Shown here piece after piece: positions 39,094 through 56,164 of a stretch of 64,000 nt of DNA. The stretch comes from Microbacterium thalassium. GTDB lineage: Bacteria > Actinomycetota > Actinomycetes > Actinomycetales > Microbacteriaceae. Each line of letters opens with the position of its first letter. Within the stretch, counting starts at the first letter, position 1. The translations under genes were made by a program, and so were the position numbers. Under the pieces are notes generated by a model. The model was not told the DNA's origin. It made no database searches and saw nothing but the letters and a program-made list of their open reading frames with translations. The stretch is from positions 248,001-312,000 of the forward strand of contig NZ_JACHML010000001.1 of the NCBI RefSeq assembly GCF_014208045.1. Reading direction: 5' to 3'.

Positions 39094-40743
39094 TCAGTAG
39101 ACGTCCTTCACATAGCGGCCCTGGACCTTCAGCTCGTCGACGGCCGCGTCACCTCCGAGGATGTCGGCGAAGGCCCTGTCCACATCGGGAGCCATGTGCA
39201 CCTTGTCGCCGCACACGTAGATGTATCCACCCTGCGCGACCCAGTCCCGCAGCTCGTCGGCGGAGCGCCTGATCTCGTCCTGCACGTAGTGCTTATCCGC
39301 CTGATCCCGAGAGAACGCCAGGTCCAGGTGCGTCAGGGTGCCTCGACGACTCAGGTCGGCGAACTCGTCTTCGTACAGGAAGTCGTATGCGCGGTGCTGG
39401 TCGCCGAAGAACAGCCAGTTGCGCCCACCGGCACCGACCGCGTCGCGGTGGCGCAGGAACGCCCGGAACGGCGCAACGCCGACGCCGGGACCGACCATGA
39501 TGACCGGGACATCGGCCGCAGGGAGCCGGAACTCGTGCGCCGGCACACGCCGCACCTCGAACGGTGAACCATCGACAGCGCGTTCGCGAAGGAAGCTCGT
39601 CGCCGCCCCGGCATAGCTGCGGCCACCCGCGTCGTACCGCACGCCGTTGACCGTCAGATGGACCCGTCCATCGTCGCCGACGGGGCTCGAGGCGATCGAG
39701 TAGTCGCGATGCTGCAGTGGACGCAGGATGTCGAGCACGTCCTCAGCCGGCACGTCGCGGCAGTCCAAGTCGGTCAGGACGTCCAGGACGTCGCGGCCCC
39801 AGAGCCACTCCTCGAGCCCGTCGCGATCGCCCGTCTGCAGCATCTGCGCCAGACGCGCGACGGCCCGGTTGTCGGGTCGCAGCCGTGCGAGACCCGCGAT
39901 GAGACCGGGATGCACGAGCCTGAGTTCGACCTCGGCCGCCAGGACCTCCCGAAGCGGACGCGTCGCGTCCTGTCGGGTGACGTCCACGTCCCCGAACACG
40001 GCGATCCACTCCTCGACGAGCCGCGGAGGATTGGTGACGAACACCGAGATCGAGTCACCCGGTTCGTACGCGAATCCGCCGTCGTCGACCGTGAGTTCGT
40101 AGTGCACGACCTCCTTCGCCGAGCCGGGCTTGGACAGATTCTGGCTCGCGGAGACGCGGGCGAGGTAGCGCCGGTCGGAGTCGCCGGTCGATTCGGCCAT
40201 CCCCGCCTCGACCCCAGCGGTCGGCGCATCGGCCGTCCAGGGGTCGGCGGCGAGCAGGTCGGCGACCGCGGGCTTGGCCCACTTCGTCGCCGTGAACTCG
40301 AAGTCGATATCGCAGTCGACGCCCTCCACCACACGCACCGCGCCGAGCTCGTGCAGGCGCCCGTCGATGTCGTGGCCTGCCTTGCAGAAGTCGTCGTACA
40401 TCGAGTCGCCGATGGACAGCACGGCGTACGGCATGCCGGCGAGCGCCCCGGGCTCGAGGCTCTGGATCCACTCCCAGAACTCCGCGGCATTGTCGGGCAT
40501 GTGGCCGTTGTCGTGCGTGGACGTCACCACCAGCAGGCGGCGCAGCGCCCGATCGTCCGAGTGCAGCCACTCCTCGAGCGAGGCGAGGGCGACCGTGTCG
40601 CCGTTCTTCTCGCTGGCGCCGTGGATCTGATACGCCAGATACTCCGCGTTCCCGGTCTGGCTGCCGTACAGGATGGTCAGGTCGGGCGCGTCCATGTCGG
40701 TCACGATGGGCCTTTCGCCGTGGAGGTCGGTGATGATGCTCAT
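39094..40743 (-). CDS. NADPH diflavin reductase (CPR/sulfite reductase alpha-like)
   Basis: A 549-residue electron-transfer protein. The N-terminal flavodoxin domain (about 22-165) has LYGSQTGNAEYLAYQI and LSIGDSMYDDFCKAG. The FAD domain has LQHRDYSIASSP. The NADPH domain has VGPGVGVAPFRAFLRHR, NWLFFGDQ and YIYVCGDKVHMAPDVDRA, ending in Tyr-Val-Lys-Asp-Val-Tyr, where a C-terminal aromatic stacks on FAD. It would pass electrons from NADPH to a haem protein such as the nearby P450 or to a free flavodoxin. The start overlaps the aldehyde dehydrogenase stop. Confidence 0.88.
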   Translation of the reverse strand: MSIITDLHGERPIVTDMDAPDLTILYGSQTGNAEYLAYQIHGASEKNGDTVALASLEEWLHSDDRALRRLLVVTSTHDNGHMPDNAAEFWEWIQSLEPGALAGMPYAVLSIGDSMYDDFCKAGHDIDGRLHELGAVRVVEGVDCDIDFEFTATKWAKPAVADLLAADPWTADAPTAGVEAGMAESTGDSDRRYLARVSASQNLSKPGSAKEVVHYELTVDDGGFAYEPGDSISVFVTNPPRLVEEWIAVFGDVDVTRQDATRPLREVLAAEVELRLVHPGLIAGLARLRPDNRAVARLAQMLQTGDRDGLEEWLWGRDVLDVLTDLDCRDVPAEDVLDILRPLQHRDYSIASSPVGDDGRVHLTVNGVRYDAGGRSYAGAATSFLRERAVDGSPFEVRRVPAHEFRLPAADVPVIMVGPGVGVAPFRAFLRHRDAVGAGGRNWLFFGDQHRAYDFLYEDEFADLSRRGTLTHLDLAFSRDQADKHYVQDEIRRSADELRDWVAQGGYIYVCGDKVHMAPDVDRAFADILGGDAAVDELKVQGRYVKDVY

Positions 40744-42110
40744 GCTGCGGTGCTCACGAAGACGGACTTGTGCTCGGTGAATCCCTTGACGCCCTCCATG
40801 CCGAGTTCGCGCCCGATGCCCGACTGCTTGAATCCGCCGAAGGGCACCTGGACGCGCACCGAGGAGTTGGAGTTGACCGACAGGGTCCCGCTCTCGACCC
40901 CGCGTGCGACACGGAGCGCGCGCCCCACGTCGGACGTCCAGATCGAGCCGCTCAGCCCATAGATCGAGTCGTTCGCCATGCGCACGGCGTCCTCCTCGGT
41001 GTCGAAGGGGATGACCACGGCCACCGGGCCGAAGATCTCCTCACGTGCAGCACGCGAGGTCCCCGCCTCGTCCAGGGCGATGTGCGGGGCCATCCAGAAG
41101 CCGGGACCCGACGGCGCATCGCCGCGGTAGCAGAGCTCGAGGTCGCTGTCGAGGAACGACTGGACGCTCGCGCGGTGCTCCGCCGAGACGAGAGGACCGA
41201 GATCGGTGGCGAGGTCGCCGGGGTCGCCGATGCGCATCGCGCGCGTCGCGTCGACGAAGGAATCGATGAACCGATCCAGCGCGGAGCGCTGAACCAGGAT
41301 GCGGCTGCGCGCGCAGCAGTCCTGCCCGGTGTTGTCGAAGACGGCCCACGGCGCAGCCGCAGCGGCCTTGTCGATGTCCGCGTCGGCGAAGACGACATTC
41401 GCGGACTTGCCGCCCAGCTCGAGCGTGACCCGCTTCATCGTCGCCGCGCTCGCCGTCAGGATGGACCGCCCGACCTCGGTGGAGCCGGTGAAGCTGATCT
41501 TCCCGACGCGCGGGTCGTCGATCAGCGCGCCGCCGACGGCGGCGCCCCCGCCCGTGACCGCCTGGAGCAGGAACGGCACCGGGGTGACCTTCTCGGCGAG
41601 CTCACCGAGCAGCCGCGACGACAGGGGCGTCATGCTCGCCGGCTTCACGATCACCGAGTTCCCTGCGGCGAGCGCCGGTGCGATGCTCCAGCTCGCGATC
41701 GGCAGGGGGAAGTTCCACGGCGTGATCACCCCGACCACCCCGATCGGCTCGCGGAAGGTCATCGCGACCCCGCCGTCGACCGGGATCGTCTCGCCCGTCA
41801 GCTTGTCGATCGTGCCCGCGTAGTACCGGAACACCGACGCGACGCTCTCGGCCTCGGCGAGGGCCGCGCGCAGCGGCTTGCCGACGTCCTGCGACTCCAG
41901 AGCGGCGAGCTGGTCACGGTGCGCATCGATCTCGTCTGCGAGGTCGAACAGGAACTGCTGACGGCGGCCGAGCGGAAGCCGCGCCCACTCGCGCTGCGCC
42001 TCGACCGATCGCGTGATGCACTCGTCGACCTCGCTCGACGAGAAGGAGCGCACGTCGTCGATCTTCTGCTCGGTCGCGGGGTTCCACACGGGGATGGTCT
42101 GGTTCGTCAT
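40740..42110 (-). CDS. Aldehyde dehydrogenase (PuuC-like position in amine cluster)
   Basis: A 456-residue ALDH, slightly short at the N-terminus. Features are ITPWNFPLPIA, SFTGSTEVG, catalytic Glu in TLELGGKSAN, catalytic Cys in GQDCCARSR (Cys-Cys) and REEIFGPVAV. It likely oxidises an aldehyde made from an amino alcohol or hydroxylated gamma-glutamyl amide, as PuuC does in the putrescine pathway. The start at 42110 has CGAGGACC before it. It is first in a two-gene operon with the diflavin reductase. Confidence 0.9.
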   Translation of the reverse strand: MTNQTIPVWNPATEQKIDDVRSFSSSEVDECITRSVEAQREWARLPLGRRQQFLFDLADEIDAHRDQLAALESQDVGKPLRAALAEAESVASVFRYYAGTIDKLTGETIPVDGGVAMTFREPIGVVGVITPWNFPLPIASWSIAPALAAGNSVIVKPASMTPLSSRLLGELAEKVTPVPFLLQAVTGGGAAVGGALIDDPRVGKISFTGSTEVGRSILTASAATMKRVTLELGGKSANVVFADADIDKAAAAAPWAVFDNTGQDCCARSRILVQRSALDRFIDSFVDATRAMRIGDPGDLATDLGPLVSAEHRASVQSFLDSDLELCYRGDAPSGPGFWMAPHIALDEAGTSRAAREEIFGPVAVVIPFDTEEDAVRMANDSIYGLSGSIWTSDVGRALRVARGVESGTLSVNSNSSVRVQVPFGGFKQSGIGRELGMEGVKGFTEHKSVFVSTAA

Positions 42111-42201
42111 CGGTCCTCGTCTCACTCGCGGCTCGCCGCCGCTGTCGTCGCACCACTGTCGCCGATGGTGGGCCGTCCGCAGGCGTACGGTGAGCACCGA
42201 A

Positions 42202-42242
42202 AACATCGAGGGCATGTGCAGCTCGCACATGCCCTCGATGTT
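42202..42242 (-). terminator. Terminator hairpin containing operator site 2
   Basis: Arms AACATCGAGGGCATGTGC (42202-42219) and its exact complement (42225-42242) form an 18-bp perfect stem with a 5-base centre. On the minus strand it follows the ferredoxin-reductase stop by 17 bases and continues into TTTT, a good intrinsic terminator. Its centre, TGTGC-AGCTC-GCACA (42215-42229), is the same palindrome as sites 1 and 3-5. It lies 105 bases upstream of the aldehyde dehydrogenase, so it may work as both. Confidence 0.7.
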
Positions 42243-42259
42243 CGACTCGCTCCGGAAGG

Positions 42260-43402
42260 TCAGACCCCCATCAGAAGCCGCGCGATGCGCGGCTGCGCGT
42301 TGATGCCGATCCACGCCGTGCTGTCATCCTCGGCCCGGTACAGGACGGTGCCCCGCTCGGGGTTCTCGAATTCGACCTGCAGCGTCATGGCAGGGTCGAG
42401 CGATCCGACGACTTGGAGCTTGCGGCCGGCCACCTCGGTCCAGAAGTACGGGCGCGGCTCCTGCTCCCGATCCGCGCCGCACAGGTCCTCGGCCAGCCGG
42501 GCGCCGTGCTGGCGCGCGGCTGCCCAGCTCTCGGTGCGTGTCGTCGAGCCGCCGGCATCGCGCCGGCTGACGACATCGCCGATCGCGTAGACGTCCGGCA
42601 CCGCCCCCTCTGCGGTCACGACCCTGCCGTCCTCGTCGGCGAGCAGCATGCCGTCGGTGAGCAGCCCGGTGCCGGCGAGCCAGCCCACCGCGGGGCGCGC
42701 GCCGACCGCGCTGACCAGCACATCGCCCGCCACCTGCGAACCGTCCCCCATGTCCACGCGCCAGCCGGCATCCGTGCGGGTGATCGCGGCGATGTCCGCC
42801 CCCCACACGCACTCCACCCCGGCATCCTCCAGCCACTGCGTCACCTCGTTGGCGAGGTGTCCGGCGAGCAGTCGCTCCAAGGGGCCCTGGGCGCGATCGA
42901 CGAGCACCGCCTGTCCACCCCGCGCGGCCAGTGACGAGGCGAGTTCGACGCCGATCGCGCCCGCGCCGATGATCACCGTCCGCTCGGCATCCCCGGTGCC
43001 GGCACGCAGGCGCCGCGCGTCCTCGGCGCTTCGCAGCGCGAGGGTGTCGGCGGGTTCGATCGGGAGACGGATCGGTGACGCGCCGGTGGCGATGACCAGC
43101 TGGCCATAGGGCAGACGCAGCTCCTCGCCTCCGGCCTCGCGCACGAGGAGCATCCGCGCCTCGACATCGACCCCGGTCGCCCAGCCGCGCACCAGGGTGG
43201 CGTCGAGATCACTCCAGTCGACCGCGATGTCCTCCGCGTCGCCCTCCACCAGGAAGTGCTTGGACAGCGGGGGACGATCGTAGGGCGCATCCGGGTCGCC
43301 GTCCACGACGATGATGGATCGCCGGTCGCCGAGCTCCCGCATGCGCTCGAGGAAGGCGGTCGTCGCGACGGACGCGCCGACCACCACCAGCTGCTCGGTC
43401 AT
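42260..43402 (-). CDS. Ferredoxin reductase of the P450 system (FAD, NADH type)
   Basis: A 380-residue pyridine-nucleotide-disulfide-type reductase close to putidaredoxin/rhodocoxin reductases. The FAD motif VVVGASVATTAFLE is at the N-terminus. YDRPPLSKHFL is typical of this group, the NAD motif is VIIGAGAIGVELASSL, and YAIGDVVSRRD binds FAD. No redox disulfide is present. The start overlaps the ferredoxin stop (ATGA), so P450, ferredoxin and reductase are made together as a class I chain. Confidence 0.9.
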   Translation of the reverse strand: MTEQLVVVGASVATTAFLERMRELGDRRSIIVVDGDPDAPYDRPPLSKHFLVEGDAEDIAVDWSDLDATLVRGWATGVDVEARMLLVREAGGEELRLPYGQLVIATGASPIRLPIEPADTLALRSAEDARRLRAGTGDAERTVIIGAGAIGVELASSLAARGGQAVLVDRAQGPLERLLAGHLANEVTQWLEDAGVECVWGADIAAITRTDAGWRVDMGDGSQVAGDVLVSAVGARPAVGWLAGTGLLTDGMLLADEDGRVVTAEGAVPDVYAIGDVVSRRDAGGSTTRTESWAAARQHGARLAEDLCGADREQEPRPYFWTEVAGRKLQVVGSLDPAMTLQVEFENPERGTVLYRAEDDSTAWIGINAQPRIARLLMGV

Positions 43403-43608
43403 GACGCGGGTTCTGCGCCGATGACCTTGATCGCGCGCTCGGGGCAGTTGCGGATCGCCTTGCGCACGTTCTCCTCGTCGTACGAGCCCTCGCGCCCCGC
43501 GATCACGTGGCCGTAGCCGTCGTCATCGATCTCGAACGTCTCGGGCGCGAGCATGAAGCATCGCGCGTGGCCCTGGCAGCGTGCCGGATCGATCCAGACC
43601 TCCGCCAT
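43399..43608 (-). CDS. [3Fe-4S]-type ferredoxin for P450
   Basis: A 69-residue ferredoxin. CQGHARC (C-x2-H-x2-C) with a distant NCPERAI supplies three Cys. A His takes the place of the fourth Cys, the usual pattern of actinobacterial P450 ferredoxins that hold a 3Fe-4S cluster. ATG 43608, four bases after the P450 stop region and with GGAGG inside the P450 end, is preferred. A GTG at 43617 would add three residues. Confidence 0.88.
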   Translation of the reverse strand: MAEVWIDPARCQGHARCFMLAPETFEIDDDGYGHVIAGREGSYDEENVRKAIRNCPERAIKVIGAEPAS

Positions 43609-43609
43609 C

Positions 43610-44785
43610 TCACTCACCTCCGGTCAGTCGAATGCGCAGCGAGCCGACGCCGTGCCACGGCTCGTCCTCGGCCAGCTCGAACTCGGGGATCGTCGCGAGG
43701 AAGTGCTGGAGCGAGATGACCAGCTCCTTGCGACCCAGGTTCGAGCCGAGGCAGCGGTGGATGCCGCCGCCGAACGCGAGGTGCCGGTTGTTCTCGCGCG
43801 TGATGTCGATGTCGTTCGGCTTGTCGTAGACCTCGGGGTCGCGGTTGCCGGCGCCGAAGACGAGCACGACGCGCTCCCCTGCCTGGATTTCCTGGCCGCG
43901 CACCGTGGTGTCCTTCTTGGCCGTGCGCGCCATCGCCTGCACGGGCGACAGCGTCCGCAGGAACTCCTCGGCCGCGTCGGGGACGCGGTCCGGCTCGGCG
44001 CGCAGCAGGCGCTGCGCCTCGAGGTTGCCGGCGAGGTACCACAGCGACGACCGGATCGCCCACGCGGTGGTGTCGAGCCCCGCGAGGAACAGCAGGTAGC
44101 CGTAGGAGATCAGCTCGTCGTTCGTCAGCGGACGGCCGTCGACCTTGGCGTCGAGCAGATCGCCCATGATGCCGTGCTGCGCGGTGCCCGCACGACCGTC
44201 GTCGATCAGGCGCTGGACGTACGCGACGAGGTCGTCGCCCGCCTTGTTCGCCGTCTCGGGGCTCTTGGTCCGCTCGTAGATGATGTCGTCGATCCACTGG
44301 TCGAACATCGGCCAGTCCGCCTCGGGGTACCCGGCGAGGCGGCTGAAGATGATCGTCGGATACGGCCGCGCGAAGCGGTGCGATACATCGACCACACCAT
44401 CCGCCTCGAACGCCTGCTTGACCTCGGCGGCGAGCTCCTCGGCGGTCGCGTGCATGCCGGGCTCGAGCTTGTTGATCGCCATCGGCGTGAACATCGGCAG
44501 CAGGAGCTTGCGGAACCCCGCGTGGGTCGGCGGATCGATGTCGATGGGGATGAGCGGCATCTCGGTTCCGAACCCCGGAAGGATCATCGAGGGGCCGACC
44601 GACCACGTGTCGGGGTCCTGCTCGGCCTCGAAGATGTCGTCGCTCTTGGAGATGTACCAGAAGCCGCCGTACTTCGAGCTGTGGCCGACGGGCTTCTCGG
44701 CGAGCATCGCCTCGTAGTCATCGAAGATGGTGTCGAGGGCCTTGCCGTGGAAGTCGAAGTCCTGTGGCACTGTTCGGTCAGACAT
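43610..44785 (-). CDS. Cytochrome P450
   Basis: A 391-residue soluble bacterial P450. The I-helix oxygen-activation motif is AGLDTT (235-240), the K-helix ExxR is E274-R277, and the haem loop is FGGGIHRCLG (338-347) with Cys345 as the thiolate ligand. PPTHAGFRKLL matches the C-helix pattern. The ATG at 44785 lies inside the end of the gamma-glutamyl hydrolase gene, and the ferredoxin follows at once. In this operon it probably hydroxylates an alkyl group of an amine or of its gamma-glutamyl amide. The family cannot be named by eye. Confidence 0.93.
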   Translation of the reverse strand: MSDRTVPQDFDFHGKALDTIFDDYEAMLAEKPVGHSSKYGGFWYISKSDDIFEAEQDPDTWSVGPSMILPGFGTEMPLIPIDIDPPTHAGFRKLLLPMFTPMAINKLEPGMHATAEELAAEVKQAFEADGVVDVSHRFARPYPTIIFSRLAGYPEADWPMFDQWIDDIIYERTKSPETANKAGDDLVAYVQRLIDDGRAGTAQHGIMGDLLDAKVDGRPLTNDELISYGYLLFLAGLDTTAWAIRSSLWYLAGNLEAQRLLRAEPDRVPDAAEEFLRTLSPVQAMARTAKKDTTVRGQEIQAGERVVLVFGAGNRDPEVYDKPNDIDITRENNRHLAFGGGIHRCLGSNLGRKELVISLQHFLATIPEFELAEDEPWHGVGSLRIRLTGGE

Positions 44786-45497
44786 GGGCGGTGTTCCTTT
44801 CCTTGTGTGCGCGCGCCCGGCCGACGAGGTCGTCGAACAGGGCATGGTTGTCGGCTGAGACGCGGAACAGATGCTCGGGGTGCCACTGCACCGCGATCAG
44901 GTTCGCGTCGGGGTCCTCGAAGGCCTCGACGACGTCTCCCGCGCGAGCCGTCACGCGCAGGCCCGATCCGATCGAGTCGACGGCCTGGTGATGGTAGCTG
45001 TTGACCCCCATCACGGACGCGCCGACGATCTCGGCGAGGCGGGATGACGGGTCGATGGCGACGTCGTGCTCGACCTCGTGGGACGTGCGCGTCTGCCAAT
45101 GCGCGTCGATGTGCTGGAGAAGGCTTCCGCCGCGCAGCACGTTGATCAGCTGCATGCCCCGGCAGATCGCGAGGATCGGGAGGCCGCGCTGCTGCGCCTC
45201 GGCGACGAGCGCCGCCTCGAACCGGTCGCGGATCGGGCTCACGCCGTACACCTTCTCGTCGGGCTCCTGCCCGTACAGCTCGGGCGACAGGTCGCCGCCA
45301 CCGGTGAGCATGAGCCCGTCGAAGCCGTCGAGCAGATCGGTCGGGATGACCTCCGTCGCGGGGAGCATGGCGGGCCGGCCACCGGCGGACACCACTGCGT
45401 CGGCGTATTCCACCACCTGCAGCGTCGAGTCGCGGGGGCCGAAGGCGGACTCCCGCAGGCTGCGGTCCGCCGTGACGGCGATCAGCGGAGCGGCCAT
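44778..45497 (-). CDS. Gamma-glutamyl amide hydrolase (peptidase C26, PuuD-like)
   Basis: A 239-residue class I glutamine-amidotransferase-like hydrolase. The nucleophile is Cys in ILAICRGMQLIN, with the oxyanion glycines in MLTGGGDLSPELYG. The His-Glu pair is in VQWHPEHLF. PuuD-type enzymes free the gamma-glutamyl group from gamma-glutamyl-GABA, so here it should release glutamate from the oxidised gamma-glutamyl amide. Start overlaps the SDR stop (TGATG), and the 3' end overlaps the P450 start. Confidence 0.9.
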   Translation of the reverse strand: MAAPLIAVTADRSLRESAFGPRDSTLQVVEYADAVVSAGGRPAMLPATEVIPTDLLDGFDGLMLTGGGDLSPELYGQEPDEKVYGVSPIRDRFEAALVAEAQQRGLPILAICRGMQLINVLRGGSLLQHIDAHWQTRTSHEVEHDVAIDPSSRLAEIVGASVMGVNSYHHQAVDSIGSGLRVTARAGDVVEAFEDPDANLIAVQWHPEHLFRVSADNHALFDDLVGRARAHKERNTAHV

Positions 45498-46261
45498 CAG
45501 TAGATCGTCCATCCGCCGTCGACGAAGAGGGTCGTGCCCGTCACCCAGCTGGCGTCGTCCGAGGCCAGGAAGGCCACGCCGTTCGCGACGTCCTCGGGCT
45601 TGCCGATGCGTCCCATCGGGGTGCGCTCGAGGAGCCAGTTGCGCACCTCTTCCTTGCCGAGCGCCTCGGCTGTGAATGGCGTCTCGATGAAGCCGGGGGC
45701 GACGGCGTTGACGCGGATGCCGGAAGAGGCGGCTTCGACAGCGAGCGCTCGCGTCAGCTGCAGCAGCGCGCCCTTCGACGCGTTGTAGTGGATCTGGGGG
45801 TGCCCGCTGCTGGAGATGACGATGTGGGCCTCGACCGAGGTGATGTTCACGATCGCGCGGGTGTGGTCGCCGTCGCCGGCGCGCAGCAGCCCGTACGCCT
45901 CGCGCGAGACGAGGAAGGGCCCGGTCGAGTTCACCGCGAACACCTGGTCCCACTCGGCGCGCGAGAGCTCCTCGAAGGTCCCGAACTTCACGATGCCGGC
46001 GTTGTTGACGAGGATGTCGAGACGCCCGAAGGCCTCGGCGATCTTCGCCATCCCGGCCTTGACCGATGCTTCGTCGGCGACGTCCGCCTGCACCTGCAGG
46101 ACCTCGGGGCGGTCGCCGAAGACACTCGCCAGCGCGTCGGGGTTGAGGTCGATGGCGACGAGCGTCGCACCGTCCGCGAGGAGCTTCTCGGCGATGGCGC
46201 GACCGTTGCCGGAGGCGGCACCGGTGACGGCGGCGATGCGGCCGTCGAGTCGATTGGTCAT
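45497..46261 (-). CDS. Short-chain dehydrogenase/reductase
   Basis: A 254-residue classical SDR. Nucleotide motif TGAASGNGRAIAEKL, then NNAG, catalytic Ser in NITSVEA, and Y-x3-K in HYNASKG. The C-terminus ends in LFVDGGWTIY. It could oxidise the alcohol made by the P450. It is 51 bases downstream of the ligase gene and overlaps the hydrolase gene. Confidence 0.9.
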   Translation of the reverse strand: MTNRLDGRIAAVTGAASGNGRAIAEKLLADGATLVAIDLNPDALASVFGDRPEVLQVQADVADEASVKAGMAKIAEAFGRLDILVNNAGIVKFGTFEELSRAEWDQVFAVNSTGPFLVSREAYGLLRAGDGDHTRAIVNITSVEAHIVISSSGHPQIHYNASKGALLQLTRALAVEAASSGIRVNAVAPGFIETPFTAEALGKEEVRNWLLERTPMGRIGKPEDVANGVAFLASDDASWVTGTTLFVDGGWTIY

Positions 46262-47701: not shown

Positions 47702-47792
47702 TGCTTCGGCCTGCTTTCGGCTTCATGGCCCGGCGGATGCCGGTGGACGGTGGAGCGTGTTGCGAGAGTATTCGGAGGCTGTGGGGGTGCAG

Positions 47793-47807
47793 TGTGCATG
47801 ATGCCCA
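47793..47807. promoter_or_regulatory. Operator site 3 of the YGTGC-N5-GCMCR family
   Basis: TGTGC-ATGAT-GCCCA: one mismatch in the right arm against sites 1 and 2. It lies 92 bases upstream of the gamma-glutamyl ligase start. Confidence 0.55.
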
Positions 47808-47855
47808 TGCTTCGGTGAGGCGGAGTGCAGACCGGGCACGGTGCAGGAACCACGA

Positions 47856-47895
47856 ACGCGGCGCCCGGCACGAGAGTCGTCACCGGGCGCCGCGT
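47856..47895 (-). terminator. Terminator of the permease gene
   Basis: ACGCGGCGCCCGG (47856-47868) pairs perfectly with CCGGGCGCCGCGT (47883-47895) around a 14-base loop, 18 bases beyond the permease stop on the minus strand. Confidence 0.75.
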
Positions 47896-47913
47896 CACGT
47901 CAAGGGACGAGCA

Positions 47914-49431
47914 TCAGTCCTTGGCGTCGTGGTGCGGGAGGGGCACAGCCATGACGTCCGGCAGCTCCTCCTCGTCGTAGATCGTGCCGATCCGGTCGTA
48001 GCGCGAAACGTGCCGCTTGCGCAGATAGAGGGCGAATCCGACGCCGGCGAGCGTGATCGCCGCCACGTAGACCGGGATGAGGTTGACCACCGTCACGTCC
48101 GCCCCGGCGAGGAACGGGATGTAGATGACGAGCAGGACGAGCACGACGGCCTGAGCCAGCGCGCCCACGACGGGCGCGACAAGCGTCTTCCACCAGTCGC
48201 CCGCGCTGTGCCGTCCCACCTTGTTGAAGTAGGCGATGACCGCCAGCGACACGAGCAGCTGGACGAAGACCACCCCCGCGGTGCAGAAGATCGGCAGCCA
48301 CGTACCGAGCTGCAGGAGCGGGTCCGCTCCGGCGAGCGCGAACAGCGCCACGACGACGATCGCGACGGCTGCCTGCACGCCGTTCGCCACGAACGGCGAC
48401 TTGTGGCGCGGGTGGGTGCGGCCGAGGCTGCGCGGGAGGATGTGGTCGCGGCCCATCGAGTAGAGGTAGCGCGAGGCGTTGTTGTGGAACGCGAAGGCGC
48501 ACGCGAAGAAGCTCGTCAGCACGAGGAAGTCGAGCAGAATACGGATCGGCTGCCACGTGTACATCTCTGCGAGCACGAAGAAGTAGTCACCGAGGAGCGA
48601 CTCGGCCTGCGACATGGTCTCGTCGCCGAAGCCGACGATTCCGGCATACGCCGCGAAGCTGTAGAAGACACCGAGCGTGATGACGGCGATGTAGGTCGCA
48701 CGCGGCACCGCCTTCTTGGGGTCGGTGGTCTCCTCGCCGTAGATGGCCGTCGTCTCGAAGCCGATCCACGACCAGAATGCGAAGAAGAAGCCGATTCCGA
48801 TCGCCGGCGCGGCGAGGAACTGCGCCGGGCTGAACACCTCGGGCATCTGCCCCTGCGCGCCGCCCTGGACGATCACCGCGGTAGCGATGATGAAGATGAC
48901 GATGATCTCGAGGGTCAGCGCCGCCCCCAGCACCCGGCCCGCGACGGTGACCTCGAAGTACGAGATCAGCCACATCAGCGCGATCGCCGCGATGCTGCAG
49001 ATCCACCACGGAACGCTCCACCCGAGGTAGAGCTCCAGCATGTGGGATGCGAAGTATCCGAACCCACCGCTGATCGCCGGGACGATCATGCTGTACGCCG
49101 CCATGACGGTCCAGCCCGCGCCCAGACCCAGCGGCTTCCCCAGGCCCTGTGTGGTGAAGTTGTAGAAGGCGCCTGCCGCCGTGATGCGCTTGGCCATCTG
49201 GGCGAAGCCGACCGAGAACACCAGCAGGATCAGGGTCGCGGACACGTAGGTCAGTGCGGTGGCGAATCCCGAGCCGTAGGCGTAGGAGATCGGGATGTAG
49301 GTGCTGACGACGACCAGTGGTGCTGCGGCCGCTGTCACCATGAGGACGATCGTGAGGAACCTGATCGACCCCTTCATGAGGTCGGTCGACGTTTCGGCCG
49401 CCGATCGCTTCTGATTCGTAGTGGTGGACAT
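47914..49431 (-). CDS. APC-family amino acid/amine permease
   Basis: A 505-residue permease with 12-13 hydrophobic segments. TM1 shows the broken-helix region typical of APC transporters (near APLVVVSTYIPISYAYGSGF), then YNFTTQGLGKPLG. Late motifs include FFACAFAFHNNASRYLY and ALGRTHPRHKSPFVANG-like SLGRTHPRHKSP. It probably imports the amine substrate as PuuP does for putrescine. It is monocistronic: its own terminator follows and operator site 4 lies 165 bases upstream. Confidence 0.9.
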   Translation of the reverse strand: MSTTTNQKRSAAETSTDLMKGSIRFLTIVLMVTAAAAPLVVVSTYIPISYAYGSGFATALTYVSATLILLVFSVGFAQMAKRITAAGAFYNFTTQGLGKPLGLGAGWTVMAAYSMIVPAISGGFGYFASHMLELYLGWSVPWWICSIAAIALMWLISYFEVTVAGRVLGAALTLEIIVIFIIATAVIVQGGAQGQMPEVFSPAQFLAAPAIGIGFFFAFWSWIGFETTAIYGEETTDPKKAVPRATYIAVITLGVFYSFAAYAGIVGFGDETMSQAESLLGDYFFVLAEMYTWQPIRILLDFLVLTSFFACAFAFHNNASRYLYSMGRDHILPRSLGRTHPRHKSPFVANGVQAAVAIVVVALFALAGADPLLQLGTWLPIFCTAGVVFVQLLVSLAVIAYFNKVGRHSAGDWWKTLVAPVVGALAQAVVLVLLVIYIPFLAGADVTVVNLIPVYVAAITLAGVGFALYLRKRHVSRYDRIGTIYDEEELPDVMAVPLPHHDAKD

Positions 49432-49595
49432 TCGGGTGACCTCTCAGTGCGTGATGCCTGATATTCCGGGTGGTTCCGCTCGACGACCCGGCGATGCGTG
49501 CGCACCGCCCGAACCTCGTCCGCGGATTGTGAGGGACCGTAGCGAGCGCTTCGTCCGCTTCTCGTGTGGCCGCTGAACACCATCACGGAGCAGTG

Positions 49596-49610
49596 TGTGC
49601 ATGACGCCCA
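49596..49610. promoter_or_regulatory. Operator site 4 of the YGTGC-N5-GCMCR family
   Basis: TGTGC-ATGAC-GCCCA: identical to site 3 in both arms. It lies 165 bases upstream of the permease start and 12 bases beyond the amidotransferase stop. Confidence 0.55.
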
Positions 49611-49621
49611 CTCGCTCGAGG

Positions 49622-50368
49622 TCAGGAGTGTCCGTCTCGTGACCCGGCATCGGCTCGCCGGCCCCGCACGATCCCGACGAACCCGCGGGTGAGGTGGCGC
49701 GCGTCATCGCTGACCGCCGTGTCCGCGCTCTCGAATTCGCGCGCCTGCGCGTCGACCTCGGCGAGGAGGGGCATCGGCACCTCGTCGCGCCACTCGACGA
49801 ATCGGGTCGGCGAGATCTCCGGGTGGAACTGCACACCCCACGACGAGCCGACGCGGAACACCTGGTTCGGGTAGACCTCTCCGGTCCCGAGCAACACCGC
49901 ATCGCGGGGCAGACGGGTGATGGCGTCGAAGTGCAGCGACGGCATCAGCATCTGCGCCGGAAGACTCTTCACCAGCGGGTCCCCCACGGCGTCGTCCAGG
50001 AGCCGGATGCGCACGAGCCCGCTCTCCAGACCCTCTCCCCCGACCGCGACCTCGCCGCCGAGAGCATCGGCCAGCAGCTGTGCACCGAGGCACACGCCGA
50101 GCGTCGGCAGGTCGGCATCGGCGGTCGCCCGCAGCAGGGACTTGATGTCATCGATGTACGGGTATGCATCCCCGTCGTGCACGCCCATGGCGCCGCCGAG
50201 CACGATGAGCGCATCATCGTGGATCGACGCCGGAACGGCGTCGCCGGCGAAGGGTCGGATGACCCGGAGCTCGACGCCGTCCTGTTCCAGCCACTCTCCC
50301 ATCCGGTCGAGGTCGCATTTGTCGTCGGGCTGGACGACCGCGATCCGGATCGTTCGGCTGATTCCCAT
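49622..50368 (-). CDS. Class I glutamine amidotransferase domain protein (GuaA-like)
   Basis: A 248-residue GATase type 1 protein. Nucleophile Cys in LGVCLGAQLLADALGG, oxyanion motif VLGGAMGVHDGD, and His-Glu in GVQFHPEISPTRF. It is the second such hydrolase in the amine cluster and differs from the C26 protein at 44778. In aniline clusters a separate GATase (AtdA2) accompanies the ligase, so this one could cleave or proofread the gamma-glutamyl product. The start at 50368 has AAGGGAATCG upstream. Confidence 0.86.
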   Translation of the reverse strand: MGISRTIRIAVVQPDDKCDLDRMGEWLEQDGVELRVIRPFAGDAVPASIHDDALIVLGGAMGVHDGDAYPYIDDIKSLLRATADADLPTLGVCLGAQLLADALGGEVAVGGEGLESGLVRIRLLDDAVGDPLVKSLPAQMLMPSLHFDAITRLPRDAVLLGTGEVYPNQVFRVGSSWGVQFHPEISPTRFVEWRDEVPMPLLAEVDAQAREFESADTAVSDDARHLTRGFVGIVRGRRADAGSRDGHS

Positions 50369-50488
50369 GGGTGGCGATTCCCTTCCTTCTCTTCGCGCAG
50401 TGCAGCGTCCACGTGCAACGCCCGCCCCCAGCATCCGGTTCGCATGGGACAGTCCGATGTCTCGTCCGCACATCGGGGTGGTCATCAC

Positions 50489-50503
50489 CGTGCATCGTGC
50501 ACG
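50489..50503. promoter_or_regulatory. Operator site 5 of the YGTGC-N5-GCMCR family
   Basis: CGTGC-ATCGT-GCACG, perfect arms with a 5-base centre. It stands between the divergent amidotransferase (121 bases) and alcohol dehydrogenase (54 bases) genes. Confidence 0.55.
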
Positions 50504-50556
50504 CCCCGCCGCGCTTCCGGCCGGTGATGATGCCCTGGTACCCCCGAGAGGACGAC

Positions 50557-51669
50557 ATGCCACGCATCCCTGTGAGTGCCGCCGTGCTGAGAGCACCCGG
50601 CGAGCCGCTCTCGATCGAGACCCTTCATCTGGACGAGCCGCGCCACGGTGAGGTGATGGTACGGACGGTCGCCGCGGGACTCTGCCACAGCGACCTGCAC
50701 TACCTCACGGGCTCGCTCGACATCTCACTTCCCGCCGTCCTCGGTCACGAAGTGTCGGGCGTGGTCGAGCAGTGCGGGCCGGGTGTCGATCGCGTGCGAG
50801 TGGGCGACCGCGTCGTCGTCACGATCACTCCCAGCTGCGGCCAGTGTCCCGAGTGCGTCTCGGGCGCTCCCACGCGGTGCAGTCGCGTCGGAGAGCGGCG
50901 CCGGCGCAGCGAGCCGCTTCTCACGGACGGAGCCGGCGCTCCGGTGACCTCGCTCGGCGCGATCGGCGCGTTCGCGGAGGCGATCGTCGTGCCCGAGGCC
51001 GCTCTGGCCGTGGTCGATGCCGACATCCGGCCCGATGTCGCGGCTCTTCTCGGGTGCTGCATCAGCACCGGGGTCGGCGCCGTGATCCACGGAGCCGGTG
51101 TGGGGCCCACCGACACCGTCGCGGTCATCGGATGCGGCGGCGTGGGCATGGCGGCGATCCAGGCCGCTCGCCTCAGCGGCGCCCGGCGGATCGTCGCGAT
51201 CGATCTGCACGACGAGAAGCTCGCACTGGCGAAGAGCCTCGGGGCGACCGACACCGTCCTATCTGCGAGCGGTGACGTGCGCGAGGCCGTGCTCGAGCTG
51301 ATACCGGGAGGCGTGTCCCACGTCTTCGAAGCGGTGGGACGACCGTCGACGGCGGAACTCGCCTTCGCGCTGCTCGCGCCGGGCGGCGTCGCGACGCTGC
51401 TCGGACTCATGCCGACAGGAAGCCGGATCAGTCTCGACGCGGCCGCCATCGTCGAAGGAGACCGACGCGTGCAGGGCTCCTACATGGGGGGCAACCGGTT
51501 CCTCGCCGACGTGCTGACGCTCACCGATCACTACCGCCACGGCCGACTCGATCTGGATGCGATGGTCACCGGCACCGTCGCCCTAGAAGGCATCGACGGG
51601 GGATTCGCCGCCATGGCAGCTCCGTCGTCCATTCGCACGGTCACCTCTTTCGGAGAAGGGACATGGTGA
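50557..51669 (+). CDS. Zinc-dependent alcohol dehydrogenase (MDR family)
   Basis: A 370-residue class III/AdhE-like MDR enzyme. Catalytic zinc ligands: Cys in GLCHSDLHYL, His-Glu in LGHEVSG, and later Cys in LLGCCIST. The structural zinc Cys are CGQCPECVSGAPTRC. The NAD motif is VIGCGGVGMAAIQAA. It is first in a + run of five genes and may oxidise the amino alcohol, next to an aldehyde dehydrogenase whose start overlaps its end. Confidence 0.92.
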   Translation: MPRIPVSAAVLRAPGEPLSIETLHLDEPRHGEVMVRTVAAGLCHSDLHYLTGSLDISLPAVLGHEVSGVVEQCGPGVDRVRVGDRVVVTITPSCGQCPECVSGAPTRCSRVGERRRRSEPLLTDGAGAPVTSLGAIGAFAEAIVVPEAALAVVDADIRPDVAALLGCCISTGVGAVIHGAGVGPTDTVAVIGCGGVGMAAIQAARLSGARRIVAIDLHDEKLALAKSLGATDTVLSASGDVREAVLELIPGGVSHVFEAVGRPSTAELAFALLAPGGVATLLGLMPTGSRISLDAAAIVEGDRRVQGSYMGGNRFLADVLTLTDHYRHGRLDLDAMVTGTVALEGIDGGFAAMAAPSSIRTVTSFGEGTW

Positions 51670-53135
51670 TGCACACGATCCCCGTCGTCGCCAGCCGCCT
51701 GTTCGTCGACGGCGCCTGGCGCACGCCGGCCGAACGGCTGGGCGTTCTGCACGATCCCAACACGGGCCTCGAACGCGTCGAACAGCTCGGCGCGACACCT
51801 CACGACGTCGAGGACGCGCTGCGCGCCGCCGACCGGCTGCACGCGTCCCAGACGCTCGACCGGATGCCGGCCGCATCCCGCGCCGCCGTTCTCGAATCGT
51901 GGGCCGATGCGCTCGACCTCCGCGCCGAGGACATCGCGGTGCAGGACGCGATCTCGAACGGGAACCCCATCACGACCACGCGGGTGCTCGCCTCGTTCCT
52001 CGGCGACCGCGTGCGGTCGGCCGCGCGGCAGGCCACCCAGATCGGCGACGGCCTCGTCCTCCCCGCGGACGGACGGACGGTGCGCCTGCTCAACCGGGCG
52101 CTCGGGCCCACGCTGGTCCTCGCCCCGTGGAACGCACCGACGTTCGTCGCGGTGTCGAAGCTCAGCACGACGATCGGGTCCGGGTCCCCCGTGATCCTGA
52201 AGCCGTCGGAGTGGACGCCGGGCGGCGCGCAGATCGCGTTCGAACTGCTTCAGGCGGCGCTCGACCAGCATGGGTTCCCCGCGGCGACGGCGCAGCTCGT
52301 CCATGGTGCCGCGGCCGTCGGGAGCGCTCTGGCCGGCGACGCCCGGGTGCGCGCGATCAGCTTCACGGGCGGCCTGGCCGCAGGACGCGCCGTTGCGCGG
52401 GCGGCGGCAGAGACGCTCGCCGTCGTCCAACTCGAGCTCGGCTCGAACAATCCCGCGATCGTGCTTGCCGATGCAGACGTCGAGCGGACCGCGGAGATGC
52501 TCGTCGCCGGCGTCACCCGGCTGAACGGTCAGTGGTGCGAGGCTCCCGGCAAGGTGCTCGTGCCGCCCGCACTTCACGACCCGCTGGTCGACGCGCTCTC
52601 GGCACGTGCCGGCGAGTTGCAGATCGACCACTCCTTCGAAGCCGGGACGCAGCTCGGTCCGCTGGCCTACCGCGCGCACCGCGACCGCCTCGAGGCTCAG
52701 CTCGCCGCCTATGCCGAGGCCGGTGCCACAGTGCGGCGTGTGGGGATGGCGCCGGACCTGGACGGCTGGTTCTTCCGTCCGGCCCTGGTCACGGGCCTCG
52801 GTGCCGCGGACGCGCCCGACGAGTTGTTCGGTCCCGCGCTCACCATCCACGCCGTCGAGTCGGTCGACGAGGCCGTCCAGGCTGCGAATCTGCCCGGCGG
52901 AGGACTGGACGGGTTCGTGTTCGGCGAGGACGAAGAGGCCGCGCTGGAGGTCGGCGCGCGGATCCGAGCCGGCGAAGTACGCGTCAACGGGACGTACATG
53001 GCCGACCTTGCAGACGGTTCCGAGCAGACGTTCTGGGGCACCGCCGGCGTCGGCGGCCACGATCCCGCGCACGGCGTCGCCTTCTCGCAGGGTCGACGCG
53101 TCGTGGGCGTCGACGCAGCGAACCTTCCGATCTAG
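51663..53135 (+). CDS. Aldehyde dehydrogenase partner of the alcohol dehydrogenase
   Basis: A 490-residue ALDH. APWNAPTFVAVSKL, SFTGGLAAGRAV, catalytic Glu in QLELGSNNPA and catalytic Cys in GQWCEAPGKV. The QWCEAPG surroundings differ from the usual GQxC-T/R form, so it is a divergent subfamily. Start 51663 (ATGGTGATG) follows GGAGAAGGG and overlaps the alcohol dehydrogenase. The pair would turn an alcohol into a carboxylate. Confidence 0.88.
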   Translation: MVMHTIPVVASRLFVDGAWRTPAERLGVLHDPNTGLERVEQLGATPHDVEDALRAADRLHASQTLDRMPAASRAAVLESWADALDLRAEDIAVQDAISNGNPITTTRVLASFLGDRVRSAARQATQIGDGLVLPADGRTVRLLNRALGPTLVLAPWNAPTFVAVSKLSTTIGSGSPVILKPSEWTPGGAQIAFELLQAALDQHGFPAATAQLVHGAAAVGSALAGDARVRAISFTGGLAAGRAVARAAAETLAVVQLELGSNNPAIVLADADVERTAEMLVAGVTRLNGQWCEAPGKVLVPPALHDPLVDALSARAGELQIDHSFEAGTQLGPLAYRAHRDRLEAQLAAYAEAGATVRRVGMAPDLDGWFFRPALVTGLGAADAPDELFGPALTIHAVESVDEAVQAANLPGGGLDGFVFGEDEEAALEVGARIRAGEVRVNGTYMADLADGSEQTFWGTAGVGGHDPAHGVAFSQGRRVVGVDAANLPI

Positions 53136-53182
53136 AGCAGCACCACCGGACTAGATCCCGGTACGACGAAAGCAGGAGACAC

Positions 53183-54301
53183 ATGATCATCGGAGTTCCG
53201 ACCGAGGTGAAGAACAACGAGAACCGCGTCGCGGCGACACCCGCCGGCGTCGCCGAGCTGACGGAGCACGGCCATCGGGTCGTCGTGCAGGCCGGCGCCG
53301 GCGAAGGGAGTTCGTTCTCCGACGCCGAATACGTCGACGCCGGGGCCTACCTCGTCCCCGAAGCCGAGACGGTGTGGGGCGACGCCGACCTGATCCTCAA
53401 GGTCAAGGAGCCGGTGCTCAGCGAATACACGCTGATGCGCGAGGAGCAGGTGCTCTTCACATACCTGCACCTGGCCGCCGACGCCCCGCTGACCGAGGCG
53501 CTGCTCTCGGCCCGCACGACCTCGATCGCCTACGAGACCGTCCAGCTCGCCGACCGCAGCCTGCCGCTGCTCTCGCCGATGTCCGAGGTCGCGGGTCGCC
53601 TGTCGGCCCAGGTCGGGGCCACCCAGCTGATGAAGACCGCCGGCGGGCGCGGCCTGCTGCTGGGCGGTGTTCCGGGTGCCCCGAAGGGCAAGGTGGCCGT
53701 CATCGGAGGCGGGGTCGCGGGTGAGCACGCTGCCGCGATGGCCGTCGGGCTCGGGGCCGAAGTCACCATCCTCGACGTCAACCTGCCCCGCCTGCGGGCG
53801 CTCGAGGCACGGTTCGACGGTCGTGTCACTACGCTGCGTTCGAACCCGTACACGATCGCCGAGACCCTCCTCGACTCCGATCTGGTGATCGGCTCGGTGC
53901 TCATCCCCGGCGCCGCAGCACCCAAGCTCGTGACCGACGCGATGGTGGCCCGGATGCGGCCGGGTTCGGTCCTCGTCGACATCGCCATCGACCAGGGCGG
54001 ATGCTTCGAAGGCTCACGCCCGACCACGCACGACGACCCGACCTTCCCGGTGCACGACGCGATCTACTACTGCGTGGCGAACATGCCGGGCGCCGTTCCC
54101 CGCACCTCGACCATCTCGCTGACGAACGCCACCCTCCCCTACGCCCTCGCGATCGCCGACAAGGGGTGGAGCCGCGCTCTGACCGAGGACGCGGCACTGG
54201 CCAAGGGTCTCAGCACGCACGAGGGTCGACTGACCAACGCCGCCGTCGGGGAGGCCCTCGACATCGCGACGACCTCGGTCGAGACGGCACTCGCTGCCTG
54301 A
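53183..54301 (+). CDS. ald: Alanine dehydrogenase
   Basis: A 372-residue NAD+-dependent L-alanine dehydrogenase: reversible conversion of alanine to pyruvate and ammonium. The N-terminal [17 protein letters not shown], the KVKEP loop, [12 protein letters not shown] and the nucleotide motif [12 protein letters not shown] all fit Ald closely. AGGAG precedes the ATG. Its presence in the amine cluster suggests that alanine is a product or amino carrier, also consistent with the class III aminotransferase downstream. Confidence 0.93.
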
Positions 54302-54311
54302 GGAGGCACCT

Positions 54312-54833
54312 ATGGATGACTCACTGTTCACCGCTCGGGCCGACCTCGGCTTCGCCTGGAGTGTCAAGGACACCTTTCTGCAGTACATCCGTCGGATGCG
54401 CGACGGAGACATCGCCTGGAGTGGCGGCGCTGCCGTCACCAGCGGCGGCGAGTTCTTCTTCCCGCTGGCGGGGGTGCGTCGCTTCTCGGACTGCGACGTC
54501 CTCACGTTCCGCGGGAGCGTGGTCTTCACGGCGCATCACGGCATGCTCTCCGTGGCGATCACGCAGCCGCGGATCACGCTGCGTGACGGATTCGCCGACC
54601 TCAGCGTGCATGTCGGCGAATCCGAAACGCACATCGCGACCGTGCAGCTGCCGCGCGCCATCCGGGACGGCAACGTGGCCATGTGGCTGGAGTGCCCGGT
54701 CGCGCTGACGGGCGGGGGCCCGGAACTGTTCGGCGGGACGTACACCGACGGCGAGCAGCTGGCGCCGCTCACTGTGCGCGTTCCCGCCGGCGCCATCGCC
54801 ACGAGCGGCGAGGGAGCGCTGCGTTCGAGATGA
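54312..54833 (+). CDS. HtaA-domain protein without signal peptide
   Basis: A 173-residue protein consisting of one HtaA domain: FAWSVKDTFLQYIRRMRDG, a GG-turn, GEFFFPLAGVRR, and FRGSVVFTAHHGMLSVAI. HtaA domains bind haem on the surface of corynebacteria. Here no signal peptide or sortase/TM anchor is present, so the protein should be cytoplasmic. It sits 10 bases after ald, and its stop overlaps the aminotransferase start. A role in supplying or sensing haem for the P450 is a speculation. Confidence 0.8.
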   Translation: MDDSLFTARADLGFAWSVKDTFLQYIRRMRDGDIAWSGGAAVTSGGEFFFPLAGVRRFSDCDVLTFRGSVVFTAHHGMLSVAITQPRITLRDGFADLSVHVGESETHIATVQLPRAIRDGNVAMWLECPVALTGGGPELFGGTYTDGEQLAPLTVRVPAGAIATSGEGALRSR

Positions 54834-56164
54834 CATCGCTGCCGACGAGCGCGCTGCTCAAACAGACTGTCCTGGCGGAGTATCCGCAGGTCGAATACGG
54901 ACGCGGCGTATACCTGTACGACGACCAGGGGCACCAATACCTGGACGGCGCAAGCGGCGCGATGACGGCGAGCATCGGGCACGGGGTCGCCGAGGTCGCC
55001 GACGCGATCCGCGCCCAGGCGGCCACGGTCGCCTTCACGTACCGCACCCAGTTCACGAACGCGCCCGCCGAGCGCCTCGCGGCGCGGATCGCCGCGCACG
55101 CGCCGGACGACCTCGACTACGCCTTCTTCGTCAACAGCGGATCCGAGGCGACCGAGTACGCGATCCGGACCGCGGTCGGCTACTGGCGGGAGCGCGGCCT
55201 CCCGGCGAAGACCAAGGTGCTCAGCCGCGCCGTGAGCTACCACGGGATGACCATGGGCGCCCTCTCGATGTCTGGACACGACGCACGTCGGCCTGACTAC
55301 GGCAACCTCCTGCATCCGTTTCCCGTCGCACCCCCCGCGCACGCGTGGCGCTACGCCGAAGCCGGTGAGACGGAGGCCGGCTACTGCTCGAGGACGATCG
55401 CCGAGTTCGAGGCCGCGGTGAGGGCCGAGGATCTTGACACCATCGCGGCGGTGATCGTCGAGCCGATCGTCGGCGCCGCCGGCGGTGCGCTCGTCCCGCC
55501 CGCCGGCTACCTGTCGGCGCTGCGCGAGATGTGCGACCGGCTGGGGATCCTGATGATCGCCGACGAGGTGATCACCGGCTTCGGGCGCACTGGGGACTGG
55601 TTCGCCTGCGGCAGCGACGATGTCGTCCCGGATGTGCTCGTCTTCGGCAAGGGGGTCAGCGGCGGGTACGCCGCCGTGGCCGGCGCCCTGCTGCGCCGAC
55701 ATGTCGTCGAAGCCTTCGCCGCGGGCAGCGGCGTCGCACCGTTCGGGCACACCTTCTCGGGCAATCCGCTCGGCGCCGCCACCTGCCTCGCCGTTCTCGA
55801 CGTTCTCGAGCGCGATGCCGTGCTCGAGAACGTCCGCCGACGCGGCCGGCAGCTCGAAGCCGGTCTTCGGCAGCTCGCGCAGGCCCATCCGCGCATGGCC
55901 GACGTGCGCGGCCGCGGACTGCTGTGGGGATTCGAGTTCACCGCCGAGGCGGGAACCACGCGCGCGCCCGATCCCGCACGTCAGACGGCGACGGCGTTCA
56001 CCGAGCTGTGCAGCCGGCACGGCCTGATCGTCTACCCCGCCGGGATCGCGCCCCTCAACAACGCGATCCTCATCACTCCGCCGCTGACGATCACAGAGAG
56101 TGAGATCGCCGACCTCCTCGATCGCCTCGGTCGGGCGCTCGAGCAGATGGAGTCGGCATGGTGA
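54830..56164 (+). CDS. Class III PLP aminotransferase
   Basis: A 444-residue fold-type I aminotransferase of class III (omega-amino acid:pyruvate, GABA and ornithine transaminases). VNSGSEATEYAIR binds PLP phosphate, YHGMTMGALSMSGH carries the stacking residue, ADEVITGFGRTG the PLP Asp, and FGKGVSGGYA the PLP Lys. It may act on the amine or amino acid with alanine/pyruvate, balanced by ald. The start overlaps the HtaA stop. A terminator follows. Confidence 0.9.
   Translation: MTSLPTSALLKQTVLAEYPQVEYGRGVYLYDDQGHQYLDGASGAMTASIGHGVAEVADAIRAQAATVAFTYRTQFTNAPAERLAARIAAHAPDDLDYAFFVNSGSEATEYAIRTAVGYWRERGLPAKTKVLSRAVSYHGMTMGALSMSGHDARRPDYGNLLHPFPVAPPAHAWRYAEAGETEAGYCSRTIAEFEAAVRAEDLDTIAAVIVEPIVGAAGGALVPPAGYLSALREMCDRLGILMIADEVITGFGRTGDWFACGSDDVVPDVLVFGKGVSGGYAAVAGALLRRHVVEAFAAGSGVAPFGHTFSGNPLGAATCLAVLDVLERDAVLENVRRRGRQLEAGLRQLAQAHPRMADVRGRGLLWGFEFTAEAGTTRAPDPARQTATAFTELCSRHGLIVYPAGIAPLNNAILITPPLTITESEIADLLDRLGRALEQMESAW

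Follow-up and report, generated by a model that had tools for sequence, protein, structure and literature searches.

A probable Ipu-type alkylamine catabolic cassette, most likely for isopropylamine, on the chromosome of Microbacterium thalassium

What is the function of a single block of genes that combines a glutamine synthetase (GS)-like ligase, an APC permease, two hydrolases of the glutamine amidotransferase (GATase) fold, a cytochrome P450 with its ferredoxin and ferredoxin reductase, a short-chain dehydrogenase (SDR), an alcohol dehydrogenase (ADH) and two aldehyde dehydrogenases (ALDHs)? The block lies in a stretch of 64,000 nucleotides, hereafter the window, which covers positions 248001-312000 of the single-contig 3.70 Mb genome of Microbacterium thalassium, and the copy is chromosomal as assembled. 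A sequence-only reading of the window had assigned the block to 39094..56164 and had proposed a new pathway in which an amine is imported, glutamylated, hydroxylated by the P450, oxidised to an acid and released. Family matches above the Pfam cut-off confirm every gene that it named. These genes probably form an Ipu-type catabolic cassette for an alkylamine, most likely isopropylamine, with the series of steps proposed below. The cassette adds one more copy to an Ipu-type system that is already known, and the refinement offered here is the proposed oxidation before release.

On the minus strand, the genes are read in the order class-I GATase, APC permease, GS-like ligase, SDR, C26-type gamma-glutamyl hydrolase, P450, ferredoxin, ferredoxin reductase, ALDH1 and diflavin reductase. 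Neighbouring frames overlap, as listed, throughout the run from SDR to ferredoxin reductase and again between ALDH1 and diflavin reductase. ADH, ALDH2, alanine dehydrogenase (Ald), an HtaA-domain protein and a class-III aminotransferase are encoded on the plus strand, facing away, and a regulator of the PucR/GAF type is encoded on the plus strand beyond the diflavin reductase gene. Alanine dehydrogenase, the aminotransferase, the diflavin reductase, the HtaA-domain protein and the regulator are additional to the genes first named, and the conserved cassette starts at about 37.3 kb or earlier rather than at 39094. Reading frames were checked by GC content by codon position, and 30 open reading frames (ORFs) were scanned for families. 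Several gene starts are our choice, and that of ALDH1 was taken as the ATG ending at 42110. Two plus-strand ORFs, 43553-45004 and 49917-50651, have no family match and were discarded after the codon-position check. The features of the cassette are as follows.

37335..39071, plus strand: PucR-type regulator with a GAF domain (PF13556 and GAF), probably the regulator of the cassette
39094..40743, minus strand: stand-alone CysJ-like diflavin (FMN/FAD/NADPH) reductase (Flavodoxin_1, FAD_binding_1, NAD_binding_1)
40740..42110, minus strand: ALDH1 (PF00171, 507 bits), downstream in the P450 operon
42260..43402, minus strand: ferredoxin reductase for the P450 (Pyr_redox_2, 152 bits)
43399..43617, minus strand: small ferredoxin (Fer4_15, Fer4_13) with a CxxHxxC...CP pattern
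43610..44785, minus strand: cytochrome P450 of 391 residues (PF00067, 93 bits), proposed gamma-glutamyl-alkylamide hydroxylase
44778..45500, minus strand: C26-type gamma-glutamyl hydrolase (PF07722, 188 bits), proposed to release the amino acid
45497..46261, minus strand: SDR (PF13561, 226 bits), proposed to oxidise the glutamylated alcohol
46313..47701, minus strand: GS-like gamma-glutamyl-alkylamide ligase, IpuC-type (PF00120, 337.5 bits)
47914..49431, minus strand: APC permease (AA_permease_2), proposed amine importer
49622..50353, minus strand: class-I GATase (PF00117, 53 bits), second gamma-glutamyl hydrolase, likely for an IpuF-type step
50563..51669, plus strand: zinc ADH (ADH_N, ADH_zinc_N), divergent operon
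51663..53135, plus strand: ALDH2 (PF00171, 288 bits), divergent operon
53183..54301, plus strand: Ald (TIGR00518, 540 bits against a cut-off of 392)
54312..54833, plus strand: HtaA-domain protein of a haem-binding family (PF04213, 81 bits)
54830..56164, plus strand: class-III aminotransferase (PF00202, 324 bits)

In the proposed pathway, the APC permease would import the amine, and the GS-like ligase would join it to the gamma-carboxyl group of glutamate with the use of ATP. The P450, with electrons supplied by the FAD reductase through the small ferredoxin, would then hydroxylate a methyl group of the gamma-glutamyl-alkylamide, so that isopropylamine would be converted to gamma-glutamyl-alaninol. 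In the actinobacterial form, the alcohol would probably keep its glutamyl group while the SDR and the operonic ALDH1 oxidise it, by way of the aldehyde, to gamma-glutamyl-alanine, from which the C26 hydrolase would release L-alanine and return glutamate. A parallel arm of class-I GATase, ADH and ALDH2 could handle alaninol that is freed early, and Ald would convert alanine to pyruvate and ammonium. The mechanism class of glutamylation, hydroxylation, oxidation and release, which the sequence-only reading had put forward, appears well supported by the anatomy of the cassette, the changes in the ligase active site and the conserved neighbourhood; its description as a new pathway does not stand. 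Gene families, conserved linkage, the altered amine site of the ligase and the relation to described Ipu clusters are observed here; we infer the substrate, which reactions follow hydroxylation and in what order, and the part played by each hydrolase.

Two P450-using Ipu gene clusters have already been described in an actinobacterium, the atrazine degrader Paenarthrobacter (Arthrobacter) aurescens TC1 (PMC6776027, published in 2019). IpuC of TC1 makes gamma-glutamyl-isopropylamide, and a multicomponent P450 system converts this compound to gamma-glutamyl-L-alaninol (PMC6776027). An amidotransferase is postulated to release L-alaninol before oxidation, and one of five alcohol dehydrogenases, one of which is in the pTC2 cassette, then leads it toward L-alanine; deamination of L-alaninol by ammonia lyases toward propionic acid is given as an alternative fate (PMC6776027). 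The same paper tabulates the plasmid P450s, ferredoxins and reductases with their protein abundances in atrazine cultures, and its table includes the C26 protein of pTC1 as the postulated amidotransferase and the ADH of pTC2; the SDR and alanine dehydrogenase genes are not in that table.

The TC1 ligases of pTC1 and pTC2 are both annotated as ipuC, gamma-glutamylisopropylamide synthetase. Like the window, the two plasmids carry an IpuC-type ligase, SDR, C26, P450, ferredoxin, reductase, APC permease, class-I GATase, ADH, ALDH, Ald and a PucR/GAF regulator. They differ from it in gene order and orientation, the P450s of pTC2 and pTC1 being 70% and 62% identical to that of the window and the ligases 59-63% identical, and the TC1 cassettes are plasmid-borne whereas that of the window lies in the 3.70 Mb contig of a genome with no gene close to AtzB. 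Plasmid pYJNG of Microbacterium sp. YJN-G has the same gene order as the window over about 18 kb, with identities of 85% for the P450, 88% for the SDR, 76% for the ligase and 84% for Ald. It differs in that the cassette is on a plasmid, in that its aminotransferase is only 33% identical and placed elsewhere, and in that phosphoenolpyruvate (PEP) synthase and its regulator, without a match in the window, are adjacent there. A wholly new pathway was rejected in view of these annotated and published relatives, and the claim of novelty fails because the actinobacterial P450 version is described in TC1.

The ipuA-I layout of Pseudomonas sp. KIE171 reportedly resembles the loci of Aminobacter SR38 and Agrobacterium AT13. 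PMC9426591 lists the KIE171 proteins IpuA-I as CAC81333-CAC81341. The SR38 and AT13 loci have a ligase-P450-ferredoxin-GATase arrangement, in which neither an SDR nor C26 was found at the thresholds applied. The Puu (putrescine) and Atd/Npa (aniline, naphthylamine) routes resemble the window in that a GS-like ligase acts first. The Puu route also has a GATase-type hydrolase and oxidises by a PuuB-type flavin oxidase, and the aniline-type dioxygenase of the Atd/Npa routes is of the Rieske type. Neither a PuuB-type flavin oxidase nor a Rieske domain is present among the 30 ORFs scanned, so that oxidation of the Puu type and of the Atd type was rejected. The score of the ligase for the gamma-glutamylputrescine synthetase model (GGputSyn) is also far below the cut-off (240 bits against 650). 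The naphthylamine (Npa) route oxidises by a dioxygenase (PMC11335346).

How general is this arrangement? Scanning GTDB yielded 28 loci. The 26 whose P450 is at least 54% identical to that of the window were kept, and L040 (32%) and L041 (28%) were dropped; six plasmid loci (H1, H2, H7, H8, H9 and H10) were taken from the 10 best-ranked places. Neighbouring genes in these 32 loci were counted by tblastn with thresholds set per gene. The gene-linkage counts are raw, without a chance expectation, and are lower bounds because the loci were cut at about 10-14 kb or less. The grouping recurs in this set, the ligase being found in 29 of the 32 P450 loci, the ferredoxin in 31, and SDR-C26-P450 in 18. 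The permease (at least 30% identity), C26 and the regulator are each present in 24 loci, ferredoxin reductase in 23, ALDH1 in 19, SDR in 18, the diflavin reductase and class-I GATase in 17 each, Ald in 16, the HtaA-domain protein in 13, ADH in 12, the aminotransferase in 11 (at least 55% identity, Agrobacterium leguminum among them) and ALDH2 in 10. When loci with P450s at least 95% identical are merged, the ligase is found in 18 of 21. The ligase of L014 is missing from the count because this locus begins at the P450, its upstream side being absent. The P450 has no match in 57 relatives (34 of the same genus) at E 1e-90, and in a search with 395 other actinobacterial genomes at E 1e-120, with at most four candidates scored per genome, the only match was its own. 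The cassette is thus apparently rare, and it appears to be mobile, with relatives on plasmids of several genera.

The ligase shares 63% and 59% identity with the two TC1 proteins annotated ipuC and 76% with the pYJNG ligase, and 29-30% with two other GS-family proteins of its own genome, labelled here GlnI and GlnA2 (29% for GlnI). At the flap position, GlnI and GlnA2 have a Glu residue, which we take to be part of the ammonium site, whereas the window ligase has Trp, and its N-terminal domain has extra residues forming a loop compared with GlnI and GlnA2. The flap Trp and the extra N-terminal residues are common to the TC1, Aminobacter, Agrobacterium and YJN-G ligases. Ligases for organic amines (GoaS) carry an additional N-terminal motif next to the amine pocket, which GSI lacks (PMC11335346). 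The extra residues of the window ligase correspond to this motif by position only. The ligase scores 247 bits against the curated GlnA model, whose cut-off is 429, and is far below the GS-III cut-off too. A role as glutamine synthetase was rejected in view of the sub-cut-off GlnA score, the flap Trp and the N-terminal loop. The amine site is thus altered, and the protein is most likely an IpuC-type gamma-glutamyl-alkylamide ligase. A search for named IpuC found relatives, with no KIE171 record among the 120 matches listed of 1362.

The P450 carries the haem motif FGGGIHRCLG and an AGLDTTAW stretch. The plasmid protein search found P450s about 70% identical on Paenarthrobacter, Arthrobacter and Pseudarthrobacter plasmids and 56-57% identical on Aminobacter and Agrobacterium plasmids. 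The CxxHxxC...CP pattern of the small ferredoxin is presumably that of 3Fe-4S P450 ferredoxins, and this ferredoxin directly follows the P450 in 31 of the 32 loci. The best model for the ferredoxin reductase is the HcaD-type ferredoxin reductase, with a score under the cut-off of that model. The diflavin reductase scores 449 bits against the cysJ model, under the cut-off of 668, and its closest solved structures are CysJ and next P450 reductases; it accompanies 17 of the 32 cassettes and is possibly a second electron donor to the P450. The PDB sequence matches of the P450, SDR, C26 and diflavin reductase indicate general families only and do not fix the substrate. The HtaA-domain protein lies mostly near alanine dehydrogenase in the 13 P450 cassettes that have it. 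No signal sequence was seen by eye in the first 12 residues of the window protein, which might serve in haem supply to the P450. In Streptomyces sp. TBY4 (L031:6094-11152), genes for a class-II GATase and for a DegT aminotransferase lie close to that of a 60% identical P450, with no IpuC-like ligase found at the threshold used, and this type of P450 perhaps serves another purpose there.

Which hydrolase acts, and when? Both keep their catalytic motifs: Cys (ICRG) and His-Glu (WHPE) in C26, CLG and FHPE in the class-I GATase. The best NCBIfam model of C26 is gamma-glutamyl-GABA hydrolase, at 91 bits under a cut-off of 266, and the Cys and Glu motifs of ALDH1 were identified by eye in the translation. 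An SDR of at least 60% identity is present in 18 of the 32 loci, and C26 is adjacent in all 18 (SDR-C26-P450). Among the loci that lack the SDR but retain upstream sequence, C26 stands beside the P450 in only one of 13, the Nocardioidaceae metagenome-assembled genome L030. On the P450 tree, in which L014 and L032 are placed in no group, the SDR+C26 label requires five changes, compared with a mean of 10.9 after shuffling, and so the pair is clustered yet was gained or lost several times. SDR and C26 were not found, at the thresholds used, in the alphaproteobacterial loci (Aminobacter, Agrobacterium, Rhizobiaceae and Roseovarius). This co-occurrence leads to the proposal that SDR and C26 form a unit, in which gamma-glutamyl-alaninol would be oxidised before hydrolysis. 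Therefore, the actinobacterial cassettes may be a distinct Ipu variant, in which SDR and then ALDH oxidise the glutamylated P450 product and C26 releases alanine, a proposal whose chances we regard as even. An order of oxidation before release was not found in the literature searched, which included neither the first report on KIE171 nor the paper on the TC1 genome. In L030, a class-III aminotransferase (66% identical) lies next upstream of C26-P450, where other loci have the SDR, and is possibly an alternative exit step.

The neighbouring genes also bear on the product. The alanine dehydrogenase gene is a second copy, with a 67% identical paralogue 1.6 Mb away, and is linked to the cassette in 16 of the 32 loci. 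PEP synthase stands beside the cassette in four (L008, L014, L015 and L016, cut by the locus end in L015 and L016) and pyruvate carboxylase in two (L011 and L025). These two genes were picked after being seen in L008 and L011, the seeds; without the seeds the counts are 3 of 30 and 1 of 30. The closest PEP synthase in this genome lies elsewhere and is 73% identical. Since a substrate entering metabolism as pyruvate needs PEP synthase or pyruvate carboxylase, and since Ald makes pyruvate from alanine, this linkage favours a C3 product and hence isopropylamine over ethylamine or cyclic amines.

Several observations weigh against an isopropylamine cassette of this kind. The nearest AtzB match of the host is only 37% identical (of AtzB, TrzN and AtzC, AtzB alone was compared), and so the host does not evidently degrade atrazine. 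The counts behind the linkage of Ald, PEP synthase and pyruvate carboxylase are raw and partly reflect shared ancestry, and after merging P450s at least 95% identical Ald remains in 8 of 21 loci. The loci L031 and L032 lack a clear IpuC-like ligase, with a 29% match in the former and none in the latter. The fourth GS-family protein of the genome also has the flap Trp, and therefore this residue alone is no marker of the ligase family. Finally, a P450 of Gulosibacter molinativorax is 73% identical to that of the window and is likely to be one of the two that PMC9477822 proposes for azepane.

The alternative that survives best keeps the same mechanism with another small primary alkylamine as the substrate, isopropylamine being incidental; sec-butylamine, ethylamine and natural branched amines are examples. 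The divergence of the two TC1 cassettes from each other may reflect a difference in their amines, none of the record titles of the 26 GTDB loci mentions triazines, and the host is without a close AtzB, all of which would agree with it. However, a C3 amino-acid product is the best fit to the linkage of Ald in 16 of 32 loci and of PEP synthase or pyruvate carboxylase in 6 of 32, and we consider another alkylamine unlikely, if still the strongest competitor.

Less probable again, and doubtful in our judgement, is a CYP151-like (PipA/MorA) route for a cyclic secondary amine, whether piperidine, pyrrolidine, morpholine or azepane, in which the P450 would hydroxylate the ring carbon beside the nitrogen and the GS-like enzyme would act either on the nitrogen of the ring or on the amine formed when the ring opens. 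The CYP151 systems are like the window in combining a P450 with a ferredoxin and a reductase; PipA and MorA differ in acting on ring amines and are linked to the window P450 only indirectly, through Gulosibacter ON4. Identity of more than 40% to PipA or MorA places a P450 in the CYP151 family. The ON4 P450s bioI and pipA share 52-53% identity with PipA of M. smegmatis (AAD28344.1) and MorA of Mycobacterium HE5 (AAV54064.1), and the GS genes GMOLON4_438 and GMOLON4_3052 bear the next locus numbers after the P450s (PMC9477822). One of the two ON4 P450 systems is proposed to hydroxylate hexamethyleneimine (azepane), and the GS genes of adjacent number are related there to nitrogen use (PMC9477822). 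The 73% identity of the G. molinativorax P450 adds to the case for ring amines. However, the ON4 assignment is itself predicted from sequence and transcripts (PMC9477822), the TC1 relatives are assigned to isopropylamine (PMC6776027), and it is hard to see what alanine dehydrogenase would do in the breakdown of a C4-C6 ring. Ordinary nitrogen assimilation, in which glutamine would be the product of the GS-like enzyme and the P450 operon would serve a compound other than an amine, agrees with the clear GS catalytic domain but is highly improbable in view of the 29-30% identity to GlnI and GlnA2, the flap Trp, the N-terminal loop, the sub-cut-off GlnA scores and the linkage of the ligase with gamma-glutamyl hydrolases and a P450.

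At the margins of the isopropylamine cassette, a PAS-domain protein gene and an HxlR-type regulator gene (34902-37129) adjoin it and have pYJNG relatives at 51% and 58% identity, and so the shared block probably reaches about 34.9 kb. An MBL-fold gene lies between the two, and its pYJNG counterpart is only 26% identical. The stretch 42204-42240, between the ferredoxin reductase and ALDH1 genes, is an inverted repeat whose 16-base arms match perfectly around a loop of 5 bases; transcripts are possibly processed or attenuated there. When 47600-50700 was scanned for promoters and terminators, nothing promoter-like appeared, and the single terminator-like site compares with 0.9 in shuffled sequences.

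If true, the variant in which oxidation precedes release would never form a free amino-aldehyde, and its carbon would pass via a dedicated alanine dehydrogenase to pyruvate, some cassettes carrying PEP synthase or pyruvate carboxylase. Isopropylamine, a herbicide side chain, also serves as the counter-ion in a widely used salt of glyphosate. It is released from atrazine (PMC6776027). A compact cassette for it that moves between actinobacteria therefore matters for the reading of soil genomes and for bioremediation. Loci with a P450 and a GS that have been read as oxidisers of cyclic amines with an unrelated GS for nitrogen, as in Gulosibacter ON4 (PMC9477822), may be glutamylation pathways.

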